A stretch of DNA of 41,141 nt from a virus. This document shows positions 3,400 through 39,813 of the stretch, piece by piece. The stretch lies in IMG/VR virus record IMGVR_UViG_3300027861_000065, positions 1-41,141 of that record. One strand, written 5' to 3'. The position numbers and the translations under genes are program-made. Within the stretch, counting starts at the first letter, position 1. Each line of letters opens with the position of its first letter. Below the pieces are notes generated by a model. It saw nothing but the letters and a program-made list of their open reading frames with translations, searched no databases and was not told the DNA's origin.

Positions 3400-3762
3400 T
3401 CACATTTTATCGCTAGGGTCATTATCCATGTCCGCTTCCGTCTCCGTATCCGCTTCCGTCTCCGTATCCGCTTCCGCTTCCGTCTCCGCTTCCGTATCCG
3501 TATCCGTATCCGCTTCCGTATCCGTGTCCGCGTCCGTGTCCGTATCCGCTTCCGCTTCCGTATCCGCTTCCGTCTCCGTATCCGCTTCCGTCTCCGTATC
3601 CGTATCCGCGTCCGTGTCCGTATCCGCTTCCGTATCCGTATCCGCTTCCGTCTCCGCTTCCGTATCCGTGTCCGCTTCCGTCTCCGCTTCCGCTTCCGTA
3701 TCCGCTTCCGTCTCCGCTTCCGTCTCCGTCTCCGTGTCCGTGTCCGTGTCCGCTTCCGTCAT
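3400..3762 (-). CDS. Alternating acidic repeat protein, (Ala/Thr)-(Asp/Glu)n
   Basis: ATG 3762 overlaps the stop of the DUF6948-like gene as ATGA, which selects this frame among several open ones. The 120-residue product is M, then 55 dipeptides each of Thr or Ala followed by Asp or Glu, then a tail MDNDPSDKM. Nearly half the residues are acidic and none in the repeat is basic or hydrophobic, so it is disordered or an extended strand with one acidic face. It is encoded by 55 hexamers varying only at two adjacent bases. Possible roles are DNA mimicry, chaperoning of the nearby Hc1-like basic protein, or metal binding; all are inference. No independent ribosome site is obvious. Confidence 0.65.
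3431..3760. repeat. 55 tandem hexamers TCCGNN
   Basis: 330 bp of uninterrupted 6-base units. On the plus strand only five forms occur: TCCGCT, TCCGTC, TCCGTA, TCCGTG and TCCGCG. On the coding strand the unit is GAN-RCG, so the third base of an Asp/Glu codon and the first base of an Ala/Thr codon vary and the rest is fixed. All six frames are nearly open as a result; only the minus frame starting at 3762 is linked to an operon start. Confidence 0.95.
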
Positions 3763-4082
3763 TCATTATGCGTCCATTCTTTAACGTTTTCAATACTTTT
3801 CTTTGCTTTTTCAGTACAATCAAGAATTTCAATTATCTCAGTAAGCTCAATTCTAGATACTTCACACGGGAATTTGCAGTTTTCAGGTTTTGAAACACCT
3901 TTTGTTGCAAGTTCGCTTAAAGACGCTGCGCCGTCCCAACACCACAAACGCCTTGCATCTAAGACCACCCCTTCTTTACCGTTTCGACTTTCTAAATACC
4001 CTGCAAAAACTCCTGCTGAATAAGTTCTGATGATAACATATTTCATCCCTTTTTCTTCTTCAGCTTTAATCCATTTGCTCAT
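3759..4082 (-). CDS. DUF6948-like phage protein
   Basis: The 107-residue product contains [20 protein letters not shown], then [19 protein letters not shown], then [18 protein letters not shown] with a closing CTEKAKKSI. This combination of '[12 protein letters not shown]', '[17 protein letters not shown]' and 'CKFPCEV' is the phage DUF6948 family as I know it. The function is not established. AAGGAG is 6 bases before the ATG, in the second copy of a 19-bp tandem repeat. It is the first gene after an internal promoter at 4129-4158 and overlaps the acidic repeat gene as ATGA. Confidence 0.8.
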
Positions 4083-4085
4083 TCT

Positions 4086-4123
4086 TTTCTCCTTGGTTCG
4101 TTTGTTTCTCCTTGGTTCGTTTG
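4086..4123. repeat. Perfect tandem 19-bp repeat carrying the ribosome site
   Basis: TTTCTCCTTGGTTCGTTTG occurs twice without a gap (4086-4104 and 4105-4123). On the minus strand each copy holds AACCAAGGAG, so the mRNA has two ribosome-site copies upstream of the DUF6948-like ATG; only the proximal one is correctly spaced. Confidence 0.95.
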
Positions 4124-4158
4124 TGACGACGATATCACAAGCGCAGATATTGTGTCAA
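4121..4158 (-). promoter_or_regulatory. Internal early promoter with overlapping operator dyad
   Basis: On the minus strand a perfect TTGACA (4158-4153) is followed after 18 bp by TATCGT (4134-4129). A perfect inverted repeat TTGTGA-8 bp-TCACAA (4121-4140) covers the -10 and the start site, the usual position of a repressor site. It would drive the DUF6948-like, acidic, Hc1-like, DUF1064 and sponge-candidate genes separately from the initiator. Confidence 0.6.
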
Positions 4159-4161
4159 GGG

Positions 4162-4362
4162 TCATTCTGCTATCTCTTTATCTTTTGATTCCGGCGAACC
4201 CGGCGGTGTTGGCTGTGGTTCAAAAATATTATACCTTTGCACTGCGCGCTGGATTTTTATGTACTGCAAGACTGATTGCTTTTGCAACTCGATTTCCTGC
4301 TGTTTTTTCAGCTTCTTTTCAGCAATGCAGGGGCATATCGCGTCTAGGCAGGAGGTGATCAT
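4162..4362 (-). CDS. Small Cys-containing hypothetical protein
   Basis: The 66-residue product begins MITSCLDAICPCIAEKKLKK, continues as a Gln-rich basic helix and ends in a Pro/acidic tail (QPTPPGSPESKDKE). Its ATG overlaps the initiator stop as ATGA and has GGAGA before it. The Cys-x4-Cys-x-Cys start could bind metal or be lipid- or membrane-linked; nothing firm can be said. It ends 4 bases before the -35 of the next promoter. Confidence 0.65.
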   Translation of the reverse strand: MITSCLDAICPCIAEKKLKKQQEIELQKQSVLQYIKIQRAVQRYNIFEPQPTPPGSPESKDKEIAE

Positions 4363-5243
4363 TCTCCAACCGCTAACGATTTTAATTTTGTTTTTATCAT
4401 AATCTTGAAATCTCTTTGCTCTACGTCATAATAATCAAGTTTTGGTCCTGCAATGAATTCAACATATTTGTTTCCAACTCCTATGATTACCGGACCTGAT
4501 TTCACGCCGTCCAAATGGTTAAGTGTTTTTAGAAATTCAAGATTATCTTCGATTATTTCCTCGCTTGACATGTTATCATTCCAGTCGTTTTCTCTTCTTA
4601 GGGTTGTCATAATTCCTATTTCGTCTGATGGTCTTGTTTTCCATCGAAGCGCCCTCTCTACTGCGACATTTATTTGATGGTCTGTGAATCCCTCAGCGAC
4701 TATTTTCTCGCGAAGTTTATCTGGAATTTCTAATTTTTGAAGAGAGAGGGGAACAACAACCGGCGCAGCCGCATTGTTATTTTCTTCTTCGAAGATTAGA
4801 GGTTCTTCTTTTATGGGGGCAGATTTCTGCCCTTCACTGCGGGGGGCAGATTTCTGCCCTTCACTGCGGGGGGCAGACTTCTGCCCTTCGTAAACATTTT
4901 TTGAAGGCTCCTCTATTACATATATTTTCCTCTTGCTTCTTATCCTTAAACCCTTCGCGCCCTGTTCTTTAACATGTTCTTTCCAAGAATCTATTTCAAG
5001 AAACCCGCGCTTTTTTAGTTCTCGATTCCAATTTTTTATTGTCGTGACGCTAACGCCTTTCATTTTTGCAAGCTGTTCATTTGATGCCCAACAATAGCCA
5101 TGTTTATTTGTTAAAACGTTTATCTCTCCAAGATATATTTTTGCACTATCTGTAAGGGTATGGTCCAATCTAGCTTCTAATGGGACGATGCAAAACTTTG
5201 GAAGATGAAGAAGTTTTTCTGTTTCTGCGGATTGATCAGTCAT
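4359..5243 (-). CDS. Replication initiator, lambda O-like, with winged HTH (HTH_36 type)
   Basis: The 294-residue protein starts at ATG 5243 with GAGGTG 7 bases upstream. Residues about 18-95 form a winged HTH: LTDSAKIYLGEINVL, then CWASNEQLAKMKGVSVTTIKNW, then ELKKRGFLEI, typical of phage and plasmid initiators. A linker at about 125-150 repeats EGQKSAP three times, encoded by DNA iterons. The C-terminal part (from about 170) contains a helical DnaD-like stretch ending FLKTLNHLDG, and a unique tail. Like lambda O it would bind iterons inside its own gene and open the origin. Its leader is covered by an antisense RNA. No loader or primase gene lies next to it, so host factors are needed. Confidence 0.75.
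   Translation of the reverse strand: MTDQSAETEKLLHLPKFCIVPLEARLDHTLTDSAKIYLGEINVLTNKHGYCWASNEQLAKMKGVSVTTIKNWNRELKKRGFLEIDSWKEHVKEQGAKGLRIRSKRKIYVIEEPSKNVYEGQKSAPRSEGQKSAPRSEGQKSAPIKEEPLIFEEENNNAAAPVVVPLSLQKLEIPDKLREKIVAEGFTDHQINVAVERALRWKTRPSDEIGIMTTLRRENDWNDNMSSEEIIEDNLEFLKTLNHLDGVKSGPVIIGVGNKYVEFIAGPKLDYYDVEQRDFKIMIKTKLKSLAVGE
4817..4886. repeat. Three 27-bp iterons: candidate replication origin
   Basis: The 16-bp palindrome GGGCAGATTTCTGCCC stands at 4817-4832 and 4844-4859, and with one change (ACTT) at 4871-4886, exactly 27 bp apart, joined by TTCACTGCG-type spacers. An AT- and purine-rich stretch lies at about 4770-4815. Palindromic iterons plus an AT-rich side inside an initiator gene is the lambda ori layout. 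Confidence 0.7.
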
Positions 5244-5250
5244 TTTTTTC

Positions 5251-5318
5251 ACCTCGCACTAAAAGTGCTGTTGACAGAAAAGAACAGACCGGCTTATAAT
5301 GCGAGGTATGTTCTTTTC
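5251..5318. promoter_or_regulatory. Nested inverted repeats in the initiator leader; RBS-sequestering stem
   Basis: Two perfect inverted repeats interlock. ACCTCGCA (5251-5258) pairs with TGCGAGGT (5300-5307); on the initiator mRNA this hides the GAGGT ribosome site. GAAAAGAACA (5277-5286) pairs with TGTTCTTTTC (5309-5318), and its centre (5297.5) is exactly the centre of the TATAAT of the opposing promoter. A small GCACT-TTT-AGTGC hairpin (5256-5268) competes with the first. The repeats may be an RNA switch, an operator, or both. Confidence 0.6.
5271..5300 (+). promoter_or_regulatory. Full-consensus sigma70 promoter, divergent from the initiator
   Basis: TTGACA (5271-5276) and TATAAT (5295-5300), both perfect, with an 18-bp spacer. 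The start site would be near 5307. No plus-strand gene follows; the next features are two strong hairpins, so it makes a short RNA antisense to the initiator leader. Confidence 0.85.
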
Positions 5319-5410
5319 AAAAGACCTGTAGGCCGGCTGGGCCGTAGCAGGTCTTTTTCTTTATGGAAGCTCGGAGATCTACAGAATTTTCTCCGAGGCT
5401 TCTTCTTTTG
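5307..5410 (+). ncRNA. Antisense RNA over the initiator mRNA leader, with tandem terminators
   Basis: From the promoter start the RNA folds into AAAAGACCTG/CAGGTCTTTT (5319-5328 with 5348-5357), with an inner GGCC/GGCC stem, then TTTTTCTTT: a textbook terminator giving an RNA of about 55 nt. A second stem, GAAGC-TCGGAGA with TCTCCGA-g-GCTTC (5366-5377 with 5390-5402) then TTCTTTT, would stop readthrough at about 5410. The opposite strand here is the leader of the initiator mRNA, so pairing could control initiator synthesis as CopA or RNAI-like RNAs do in plasmids. No ribosome site or ORF is evident in the RNA. Confidence 0.62.
5329..5360 (+). terminator. First terminator of the antisense RNA
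   Basis: This is the loop, right arm and U-run of the 10-bp perfect stem begun at 5319; T-run 5354-5358. The same stem has TTTTG after it on the minus strand, so it may also weaken leftward transcription. Confidence 0.75.
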
Positions 5411-5466
5411 TGCGCTTATTTTAAATTTTACACAAGTGGAATGTGGTTTAAATTTATTTCTATCAT

Positions 5467-5703
5467 TTACACGTCTAAATCAGGCAAAACATGTTTTAAA
5501 GCAAAAACATAAACGCGCCCACTAGTTTCACCTACCGCGATAATTAAGGGAATGGTAGGTCCGAATAAGACAATCTCGTCGCTTAAGTCTTTAAAAATTA
5601 GTGAGTCAAAGAAACCGTTAATCAACGAAATTTCTTCATCAATTCCAAGGTCTCGGCCTTCTAAAACATCGGTGATTCTTTTTTTATATTTCGAAAATTC
5701 CAT
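5467..5703 (-). CDS. Small hypothetical protein before the initiator
   Basis: The 78-residue product starts at ATG 5703, which has AAAGG six bases upstream; another ATG at 5709 overlaps that site. It begins MEFSKYKKRITDVLEGRD and has a hydrophobic middle (DEIVLFGPTIPLIIAVGE) followed by VYVFALKHVLPDLDV, consistent with a small alpha/beta domain. No family is recognised. The 220 bases after it hold the antisense RNA and initiator leader. Confidence 0.7.
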   Translation of the reverse strand: MEFSKYKKRITDVLEGRDLGIDEEISLINGFFDSLIFKDLSDEIVLFGPTIPLIIAVGETSGRVYVFALKHVLPDLDV

Positions 5704-7477: not shown

Positions 7478-7738
7478 TTAAAATTCAAATTCTTGTTGTC
7501 TTGGGACTTTCTTATTCTTAAAGACCTCCGGCGATAAGCATATGTCTTTCGCTTTTACCTTTCCTTTGGTGAATTTTTCAACAGCCTTTGCTATAATGGG
7601 GGTAACTTTATGTCCGTGACAAAGAGCGGATACGGTCCTTGAACAAATCCCCATTTTTCTGGCTGCCCACGCGTGTTTAAGCCCGTGTTTTTCAAGATAT
7701 TCGTAGACGGGGCCGAAACCTTTTTCATTTTTTTTCAT
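7478..7738 (-). CDS. HTH DNA-binding regulator (Cro/CI-type candidate)
   Basis: The 86-residue protein holds YEYLEKHGLKHAWAARKMG, then ICSRTVSALCHGHKVTPIIAKAVEKFTKG, a helix-turn-helix of the XRE/Cro kind covering about residues 12-58, with a basic C-terminal tail. GAGGG precedes the ATG. It is the first gene of the leftward early block and faces the rightward recombination block across 75 bases carrying a dyad at 7765-7782, the standard position of a phage switch repressor. Confidence 0.72.
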   Translation of the reverse strand: MKKNEKGFGPVYEYLEKHGLKHAWAARKMGICSRTVSALCHGHKVTPIIAKAVEKFTKGKVKAKDICLSPEVFKNKKVPRQQEFEF

Positions 7739-38292: not shown

Positions 38293-39813
38293 CTACCCCC
38301 CCCAATAAGCCCTTAAAGCCTTCGCGTCATCTTCCATAGTACCTGTTCCCAACACTTTTGAAAGACCGGAGCAGAGGTAACGCATCGCATCGGCCCCGTG
38401 ACTAGCATCATCGTGTCGAGGCTTAGACGTAAAGCCTCCTATTCTCGTATTCCACTCTTTCTTGTAGTTCGAGAGAGCTAACAACCCATCGTTACACTTA
38501 TTCTTATCGAACCACATACGTGGCATCGTTGTGCGCACTAAATTGATACCGTCAAGTATACTGTGTTGCTCTAATATTACGCCATGTAAATTAAACTCTT
38601 TAGCCTGCTGCTCGAATGTGATGCCAGCCCTGTCACGTGCCTTAGCATCGCTCGGCCATATGTGTGTACCGTAAGCGTATCCTTTTTGTGTAAGCATCTC
38701 AACTGTTCTATCGAGCGAAAAGTCACTCTTTTCGAAGTAGTCGATGATCTTTATCTCTCCGGCTCTATCTATCTGAAAGAACCATATGCTTTGCGCATCT
38801 GCCTGGCCTAGATCCCATGCTGTGTGTACTGGCAATGCTCTATCATAGCTTATCTGCGTGACGTGTCCCGACTCGTAGAGTTCTTTGATCTGTGTTGAGT
38901 ACCAATTCCCTTCCTGAGACGCCATGAAGGCCTCCTCGGGTGTACTAGGAAACTCTCTAAGCATATCTTCACGCTGTGTTTCTTCTTTCTTTACGTACCA
39001 CCATTTTTGAGGAAAGGTAAGTTTGATGCCTTGAAGTTCTAGCTTATCGAAATACTCCACCTTTTCTTGAGATAGCGATTGTTGCTCGTCAAGCATGTAT
39101 GCAGGATGATCATACCAAGGAAAAAAGAAAGGGTAGAAATCCATCTCACCGAAGTGCTCACCGTTCCTAATCTTCTCTAAAGCTAGATTAGTCATATCAT
39201 AGAAAGTGCCTTCACGACCTTCTGCGGTGCTTTCTATTGTGATAAACTGTCCTTTATGAACTGTATTTAACGCCCCTGTAACGATCTCCCTGGCCTTTTC
39301 TGGATATTTAGCGCATATCTTCCCCATCTCGCTTATATGAAGAAACTGCAAAGTACTAGAACGTAAAGAAGTACCAACCCGTATAAGAGAGCCATGACTA
39401 AATGATAATTCTTTAGCCGAATCTCCAACAGTCCGAAAAAGAGGTTTGATCGCCGGATGAAGATGATCAAATGCAAACTTGATTTTATCAACAAATATAT
39501 TTTGAGCATCGTCAAGAGTATGTGCAATGATACCTGCCTGTATGTTGTCAGTCCATAATACTTGGTCTAAGAAATAGATGCATAGAAGAGTTGTGCAGCC
39601 AAGCTGGCGAGCTTTCAAAATAATATTACAATTATGGAAATTATCTAGAAGAATTCTTTGTGTAGGATTTGGCTTGAAGACAACCTTTTTTCCGAGCTCA
39701 TTTTTTATGCTGTAGAGGTGGCTAATCCTCCACGACTGGGACGCTAACCTCTTCAGTTCCGGATGATCCTTCAAGAGTTTTAACAGCCCGGGCGAGTTTT
39801 CTAATAAGGTCAT
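38293..39813 (-). CDS. Terminase large subunit
   Basis: The 506-residue protein has Walker A KARQLGCTT near residue 76, Walker B region LQFLHISEMGK near 165, a coupling motif (ESTAEGREG), then the RNase H-like nuclease from about 330 with TAWDLGQADAQ, WPSDAKARD, and DDASHGADAMRYL. It translocates DNA and cuts it at headful packaging. The start overlaps TerS by 92 bases; conserved sequence from WRISHLYSIKN onwards rules out a much later start. Confidence 0.93.
   Translation of the reverse strand: MTLLENSPGLLKLLKDHPELKRLASQSWRISHLYSIKNELGKKVVFKPNPTQRILLDNFHNCNIILKARQLGCTTLLCIYFLDQVLWTDNIQAGIIAHTLDDAQNIFVDKIKFAFDHLHPAIKPLFRTVGDSAKELSFSHGSLIRVGTSLRSSTLQFLHISEMGKICAKYPEKAREIVTGALNTVHKGQFITIESTAEGREGTFYDMTNLALEKIRNGEHFGEMDFYPFFFPWYDHPAYMLDEQQSLSQEKVEYFDKLELQGIKLTFPQKWWYVKKEETQREDMLREFPSTPEEAFMASQEGNWYSTQIKELYESGHVTQISYDRALPVHTAWDLGQADAQSIWFFQIDRAGEIKIIDYFEKSDFSLDRTVEMLTQKGYAYGTHIWPSDAKARDRAGITFEQQAKEFNLHGVILEQHSILDGINLVRTTMPRMWFDKNKCNDGLLALSNYKKEWNTRIGGFTSKPRHDDASHGADAMRYLCSGLSKVLGTGTMEDDAKALRAYWGG

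Follow-up and report, generated by a model that had tools for sequence, protein, structure and literature searches.

A predicted antisense RNA that may control a phage replication initiator by closing its ribosome-binding site

Replication at the highest possible speed is what one expects of a phage, and a virus genome in which a strong promoter within the leader of the replication initiator gene points away from that gene into nothing but terminators raises the question of what such a promoter might do. The window analyzed here, a linear virus record of 41,141 bp from IMG/VR, contains genes for portal, terminase, exonuclease, RecT-like and helicase proteins. A sequence-only reading had likened the segment 5251-5410 to the plasmid elements in which an antisense RNA controls copy number. 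The analysis described below suggests that this segment is indeed probably an antisense-RNA control unit for the replication initiator, through which feedback would limit replication.

The host of this phage is likely to be Gram-negative given that the relatives of its terminase in GTDB genomes are mostly proteobacterial or belong to Desulfobacterota. These relatives share related structural genes but lack the initiator of the window, and among 66 loci surveyed as neighbors of DUF6948, almost none has a related initiator. Neither an integrase nor a ParA-type partition gene was recognized among the ORFs scanned, which are part of the ORFs of a record that may be incomplete; a methylase with a weak ParB-like match is among them. 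A YdaS/Cro-like gene (7478-7738) is the first of its operon. Several peculiarities of this genome deserve mention in their own right. A perfect 19-bp tandem duplication at 4086-4124 (CAAACGAACCAAGGAGAAA on the minus strand) gives the DUF6948 gene (3759-4082) a second copy of its ribosome site, with a TTGACA-18-TATCGT promoter containing a TG element (4158-4129) located just above the duplication, and the minus-strand gene at 3400-3762 encodes an acidic protein of 120 aa that consists almost entirely of (T/A)(D/E) dipeptide repeats, with a 300-aa open frame of F/I/V-R repeats on the opposite strand.

The antisense promoter, TTGACA-18-TATAAT, is located on the plus strand at 5271-5300 (TTGACA at 5271-5276 and TATAAT at 5295-5300, separated by 18 bp), is directed away from the initiator gene, and matches the sigma-70 consensus, the use of which by the host is assumed, at 12 of 12 positions. 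It is the only 12/12 or 11/12 match in the 41 kb, and the expectation for a 12/12 match is 0.025 per shuffled window. The predicted transcript would start near 5307, that is, at -64 relative to the initiator start codon, and end near 5358 or 5407, so that its predicted length is 51-100 nt, close to the 55-100 nt originally noted; it would consist of a 12-nt 5' tail, a stem-loop (5319-5357), a 7-nt spacer and a second stem-loop (5365-5403), each stem-loop being followed by a T-rich tract. As had been claimed, the promoter leads only to these two terminator hairpins: no plus-strand ORF of at least 60 aa has its start in the interval from the promoter to the second terminator, and the predicted RNA, which is fully complementary to the initiator leader, stops at about 5407, before the upstream gene, whose end is at 5467. 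In silico folding, proposed earlier as a check, showed that both strands fold better than expected by chance, with z = -5.8 for the RNA 5307-5410 (-41.9 kcal/mol) and z = -6.5 for the minus-strand leader. At the gathering score, no covariance model of the Rfam antisense families (ctRNA, CopA, RNAI) matched, a hit to ctRNA_p42d (E = 5.5) being noise, and Rfam yielded nothing for the window leader or for the other initiator leaders discussed below.

The initiator gene itself (4359-5243, minus strand) encodes 294 aa from the ATG at 5243, a GTG at 5252 also being a possible start. In the AF2 model (mean pLDDT 69), the protein comprises an N-terminal winged HTH domain, a disordered linker (residues 115-171) and a C-terminal domain. 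It matches the Pfam family HTH_36 (2e-10) as well as phrog_19658, 270 and 678, which are annotated as replication initiation or O-like; the match to the O-like phrog_678 has a value of 2.5e-10, and the direct hhalign comparison with lambda O gives a probability of 22%. A Pfam match to RepA_N (PF06970) was not obtained, and the hhalign probability for pSK41 Rep is 0.1%; in the Foldseek search with the N-terminal domain, N-domains of RepA_N Rep proteins scored best and DnaD was within the top ten, a similarity at the level of the fold (E 0.007). Within the gene, 2.8 near-identical tandem copies of a 27-bp repeat occupy 4815-4889, each containing GGGCAGAAATCTGCCC, a palindrome, or a version of it that differs by one base, and encode residues 118-142, which fall inside the modeled disordered linker. 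These repeats begin 355 nt and end 429 nt into the gene, whereas the lambda iterons start 348 nt into O and the 23-bp repeats of pSK41 are 408 nt into rep; in-gene repeats were detected in 113 of 125 related HTH_36 initiator genes. The repeats of the window are probably origin iterons, which by analogy suggests a complete replicon built like that of lambda O or pSK41 Rep.

Several segments of the initiator leader, all read on the minus strand, are central to the proposed function. The Shine-Dalgarno (SD) segment UGCGAGGU (arm C, 5251-5258) and the anti-SD ACCUCGCA (5300-5307) are complementary at 8 of 8 positions (ACCTCGCA at 5251-5258, TGCGAGGT at 5300-5307), and the anti-SD sits at the loop edge of a hairpin formed by arm A (5305-5318) and arm B (5277-5290). 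These two arms form the dyad GAAAAGAACA-N22-TGTTCTTTTC (5277-5318), the 10-bp inverted repeat of the sequence-only reading, which matches at 10 of 10 positions, extends to 14 nt at 93% and is centered, as reported, at 5297.5, the center of TATAAT. The same dyad could also be a protein operator; a search for its pattern in the DNA of IMG/VR returned 5 matches, all attributable to chance. For the initiator mRNA, there is a candidate weak promoter, TTTAAA-16-TAAAAT (5425-5452, minus strand; 9/12, a match that by itself is not above chance), which would start transcription near 5418 and give a 175-nt leader. An alternative candidate, TTGAAA-16-TATAAG (5293-5320, minus strand; score 9.9), lacks the conserved T at position 6 of the -10 element. 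This possible sense promoter overlaps the antisense promoter back to back, and initiator transcripts that began there would be out of reach of the antisense RNA.

The minus-strand leader was folded either free or with 5307-5360 or 5307-5410 held in a duplex; in this energy test, the duplexed bases are simply unavailable, and kinetics and pseudoknots are left out. In the free leader, starting from 5430 or 5364, the hairpin 5277-5290:5305-5318 has a probability of 0.78-0.91 and the anti-SD:SD stem only 0.02-0.14, whereas in the bound leader the hairpin is gone and the anti-SD:SD stem rises to 0.87-1.0. Thus, the original claim that the leader folds to hide the ribosome site stands with respect to the pairing but not as a description of the free RNA, in which this fold is not the default. 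Upon binding, the predicted fraction of unpaired SD drops from about 0.39 to 0.00-0.12, and the cost of opening the region from -15 to +6 increases from 8.5 to 13.1 kcal/mol (+4.5), a rise equaled by 3 of 1000 dinucleotide shuffles; no pseudoknot is needed for the switch. At 8.5, the free leader is not wide open, and with a leader starting from 5480 the change is smaller (SD unpaired 0.19 to 0.12) because a distal segment also pairs with the SD. The prediction depends on where the bound RNA begins: the switch shows up solely for 5' ends from -64 to -70 and would be lost if the start were moved from -64 to -62. The placement of the antisense RNA is thus precise, yet this is a weak point if the real start is 2 nt nearer the gene.

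As a positive control, the same pipeline was applied to the rep leader of pSK41, where it recovered an 80-nt antisense RNA and an opening cost that increases from 4.3 to 14.3 kcal/mol; the published RNAI of this plasmid is about 83 nt long and sequesters the rep ribosome site (PMC5703833). The negative control, 115 other phage genes preceded by gaps of at least 150 nt, yielded a single strict match, L069 (5.2 to 11.0), and this gene is itself probably a replication initiator to judge from its protein matches (phrog_8102, 3e-4; HTH_36, 7e-5, below the cut-off).

For both the leader and the initiator of the window, searches of IMG/VR, GTDB genomes, phages and plasmids found no close relatives, and among 389 genomes of one class, only two weak domain matches, both in one genome, were detected. 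Two alignment-based scans produced 125 non-redundant HTH_36 initiators; 92 of these cannot carry the unit because the gap upstream, at less than 90 nt, leaves no room; in most, with those of Staphylococcus and Lactobacillus phages among them, there is no gap before the gene. The predicted switch was found in 7 other environmental phage initiator loci, the leaders of 6 of which are mutually unrelated. In the first set tested, nine loci with an antisense promoter and terminator, the window included, six show the switch (shuffle p of 0.005-0.015 each), and combining the p values of all nine by Fisher's method gives 1e-7. The opening cost upon binding goes from 5.4 to 13.8 in L155, 4.2 to 13.8 in L068, 5.3 to 10.6 in L212, 4.3 to 8.3 in L156 and 7.6 to 11.6 in L173; L158, L174 and L197 have the promoter and terminator but showed no effect in the energy test. 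An additional locus, L320, the one new member found blind by a DNA-pattern scan, goes from 4.9 to 9.2, and 2 of 400 shuffles do as well. Across these switch loci, the leader sequences differ, and so do the arrangements of the arms (in L212 and L156, arm A lies within the antisense terminator), and the induced stem closes the SD or the start codon. The sequence-only reading had asked whether relatives keep the initiator but lose the promoter and stems: distant relatives sharing the domain do so, but the two full-length homologs found, L155 and L068, both keep the unit. L155, whose initiator is 31% identical to that of the window over the full length, has TTGACT-17-TATGAT and, besides a terminator, an inverted repeat of 11 bp that would hide the SD and competes with an upstream arm.

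Two further loci, L239 and L236, appear three-armed by eye but fail the energy test and hence are not counted as support. Their arms (-116 to -20 and -90 to -14 from the initiator start, respectively) could switch by a pseudoknot-like loop contact that is invisible to nested folding, an arrangement as in IncB/IncI-alpha plasmids. A strict exact-match detector of three arms proved too crude (7 of 32 loci vs 19 of 640 shuffles, some of the matches being A/T runs) and was discarded.

The strongest sign of selection on the unit comes from L068 and L069, the leaders of which are 90% identical from -187 to -7 of the start codon over a block of 180 bp (L068:8798-8978 and the complement of L069:17064-17242). 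The shared span takes in the predicted antisense unit and the greater part of the SD region, and the similarity ends at the SD/start region; the two initiator proteins show no similarity to each other, so the leader-antisense block is kept in front of two different initiators.

Under the mechanism that we favor, the strong promoter would produce a short, terminated RNA with two stem-loops in proportion to the number of phage DNA copies. In the free initiator mRNA, pairing of arm A with arm B would compete with the anti-SD, leaving the ribosome site more open. The antisense RNA would form a duplex with the leader that extends as far as the antisense 5' end (about 5307) and occupies arm A; the anti-SD just past that end would then be freed to pair with the SD, and translation of the initiator would stop. 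More DNA copies would therefore mean less initiator per copy, and replication from the putative iterons inside the initiator gene would be limited.

Among the other readings, the one that survives best, although we regard it as unlikely, draws on lambda pO/OOP: the promoter would act by convergent transcription (through collision or supercoiling near the in-gene origin) or via the upstream gene, and the RNA itself would do little. Both units have the same position and direction with respect to an O-like initiator gene that contains iterons (putative in the window), and in lambda, read-through from pR decreases and replication is affected when pO is active, whereas OOP RNA has little effect on O (PMC3985674). 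However, OOP starts beside the O start codon, about 11 nt before O (base 38,675 vs O at 38,686), covers the end of cII with an overlap of 52 bases (PMC5869508) and acts on cII. This layout is not found in the window, where the predicted RNA starts 64 nt upstream and ends at about 5407, short of the upstream gene that stops at 5467; its position suits an SD switch of the kind also predicted for loci of different sequence. Quite improbable, in our view, is antisense-driven transcription attenuation as in pT181 or pIP501, whereby binding ends the initiator mRNA early. pT181 has the same three-arm logic with a pre-emptor (PMC5703833), and the hairpin 5319-5357, in the minus-strand reading, is followed by a short U run and so could terminate weakly; but the stem that antisense binding would induce (5300-5307 with 5251-5258) has GAAAAAAAUG rather than a U-tract after it and hence is not a terminator, and across the survey it is the SD or start codon that the induced stem closes. 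A protein operator, with the dyad as the binding site of a repressor or the initiator and the promoter and terminator only insulating operons or making a targetless RNA, seems very improbable as the sole explanation: the 14-nt, 93% dyad centered exactly on TATAAT and the YdaS/Cro-like gene at the start of its operon are in its favor, but the same arms serve the leader switch, which is also predicted at loci where the arms are arranged differently; the two readings are, in any case, compatible. A fortuitous, non-functional combination of consensus matches and hairpins is scarcely credible, even with a window leader that has no sequence relatives to show conservation, in view of the promoter expectation, the fold z values, the 3 in 1000 shuffles, the independent loci and the block common to L068 and L069.

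The recurrence of the predicted switch in unrelated sequences and the swapped L068/L069 block amount to a general, testable design. Quite possibly, although we put this forward only tentatively, there exists an undescribed, widespread class of phage replication-control modules that combine an antisense RNA with a three-arm ribosome-site switch and move as a cassette among non-homologous initiators. Such modules would give uncultured phages plasmid-style copy-number feedback, whether they are growing lytically or persist as extrachromosomal prophages; restraining the initiator in this way implies either a prophage that lives like a plasmid or replication that is controlled in time. The three-arm switch would also serve as a sequence-independent signature for finding more units. 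A literature search, with most subscription papers outside its reach, retrieved no description of such a leader switch in O-type phage replicons.

The notion that this kind of control is unusual in a phage was, nevertheless, too strong given the earlier examples of lambda OOP and the P1 lytic replicon. The latter is a RepL system controlled by C1. It is reportedly subject to antisense-RNA control (Heinrich 1995; title cited in PMC9948254), so that in P1, as predicted here, a phage replication gene would be regulated in this way. With lambda, the window shares an initiator gene with (putative) iterons in the middle, as in O/ori, and a short terminated antisense RNA, predicted in our case, directed away from an O-type initiator; however, lambda pO is a 9/12, LexA-linked promoter compared to 12/12 in the window, and no upstream three-arm leader is reported for OOP. 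The noncoding RNA of mycobacteriophage cluster A prophages has a different role, being used for replication itself (PMC7157519). Among plasmids, pT181 RNAI and pIP501 RNAIII similarly combine an antisense RNA, a pre-emptor and an alternative stem in the rep leader, but the outcome there is transcription termination, whereas the induced stem of the window has no U-tract. In the IncI-alpha/IncB systems, which combine RNAI with pseudoknot activation, the target loop pairs near the SD, to which L239 is similar by eye; unlike these, the window leader needs no pseudoknot.

The anatomy, folding controls and recurrence uphold the proposal of plasmid-style control, but the closest known mechanism, by analogy, appears to be that of pSK41 RNAI rather than CopA or ColE1 RNAI. 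In this system, which staphylococcal RepA_N plasmids have in common with pPR9-type hybrids whose Rep belongs to HTH_36 (pfam13730), binding of the antisense RNA makes the rep leader fold into a stem-loop in which the ribosome site is concealed (PMC5703833). The window differs in being a virion-forming phage, probably of Gram-negative hosts, with an initiator that is not RepA_N by sequence, an unrelated leader sequence, a predicted RNA start 64 nt upstream of the start codon vs about 100-156 in pSK41, and an anti-SD at the loop edge of the competing hairpin. Common to both are an antisense-strand promoter located in the initiator leader together with an intrinsic terminator; a short RNA (about 80-100 nt; predicted for the window) with an unstructured 5' tail, two stem-loops and a 7-8 nt spacer; complementarity to the leader upstream of the SD, with binding leading to an SD-closed fold (computed for the window); and origin repeats (putative here) inside an initiator gene whose product has a winged-HTH N-domain of the same fold class. 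The design would thus link phage O-type replicons with pSK41-type plasmid replicons.
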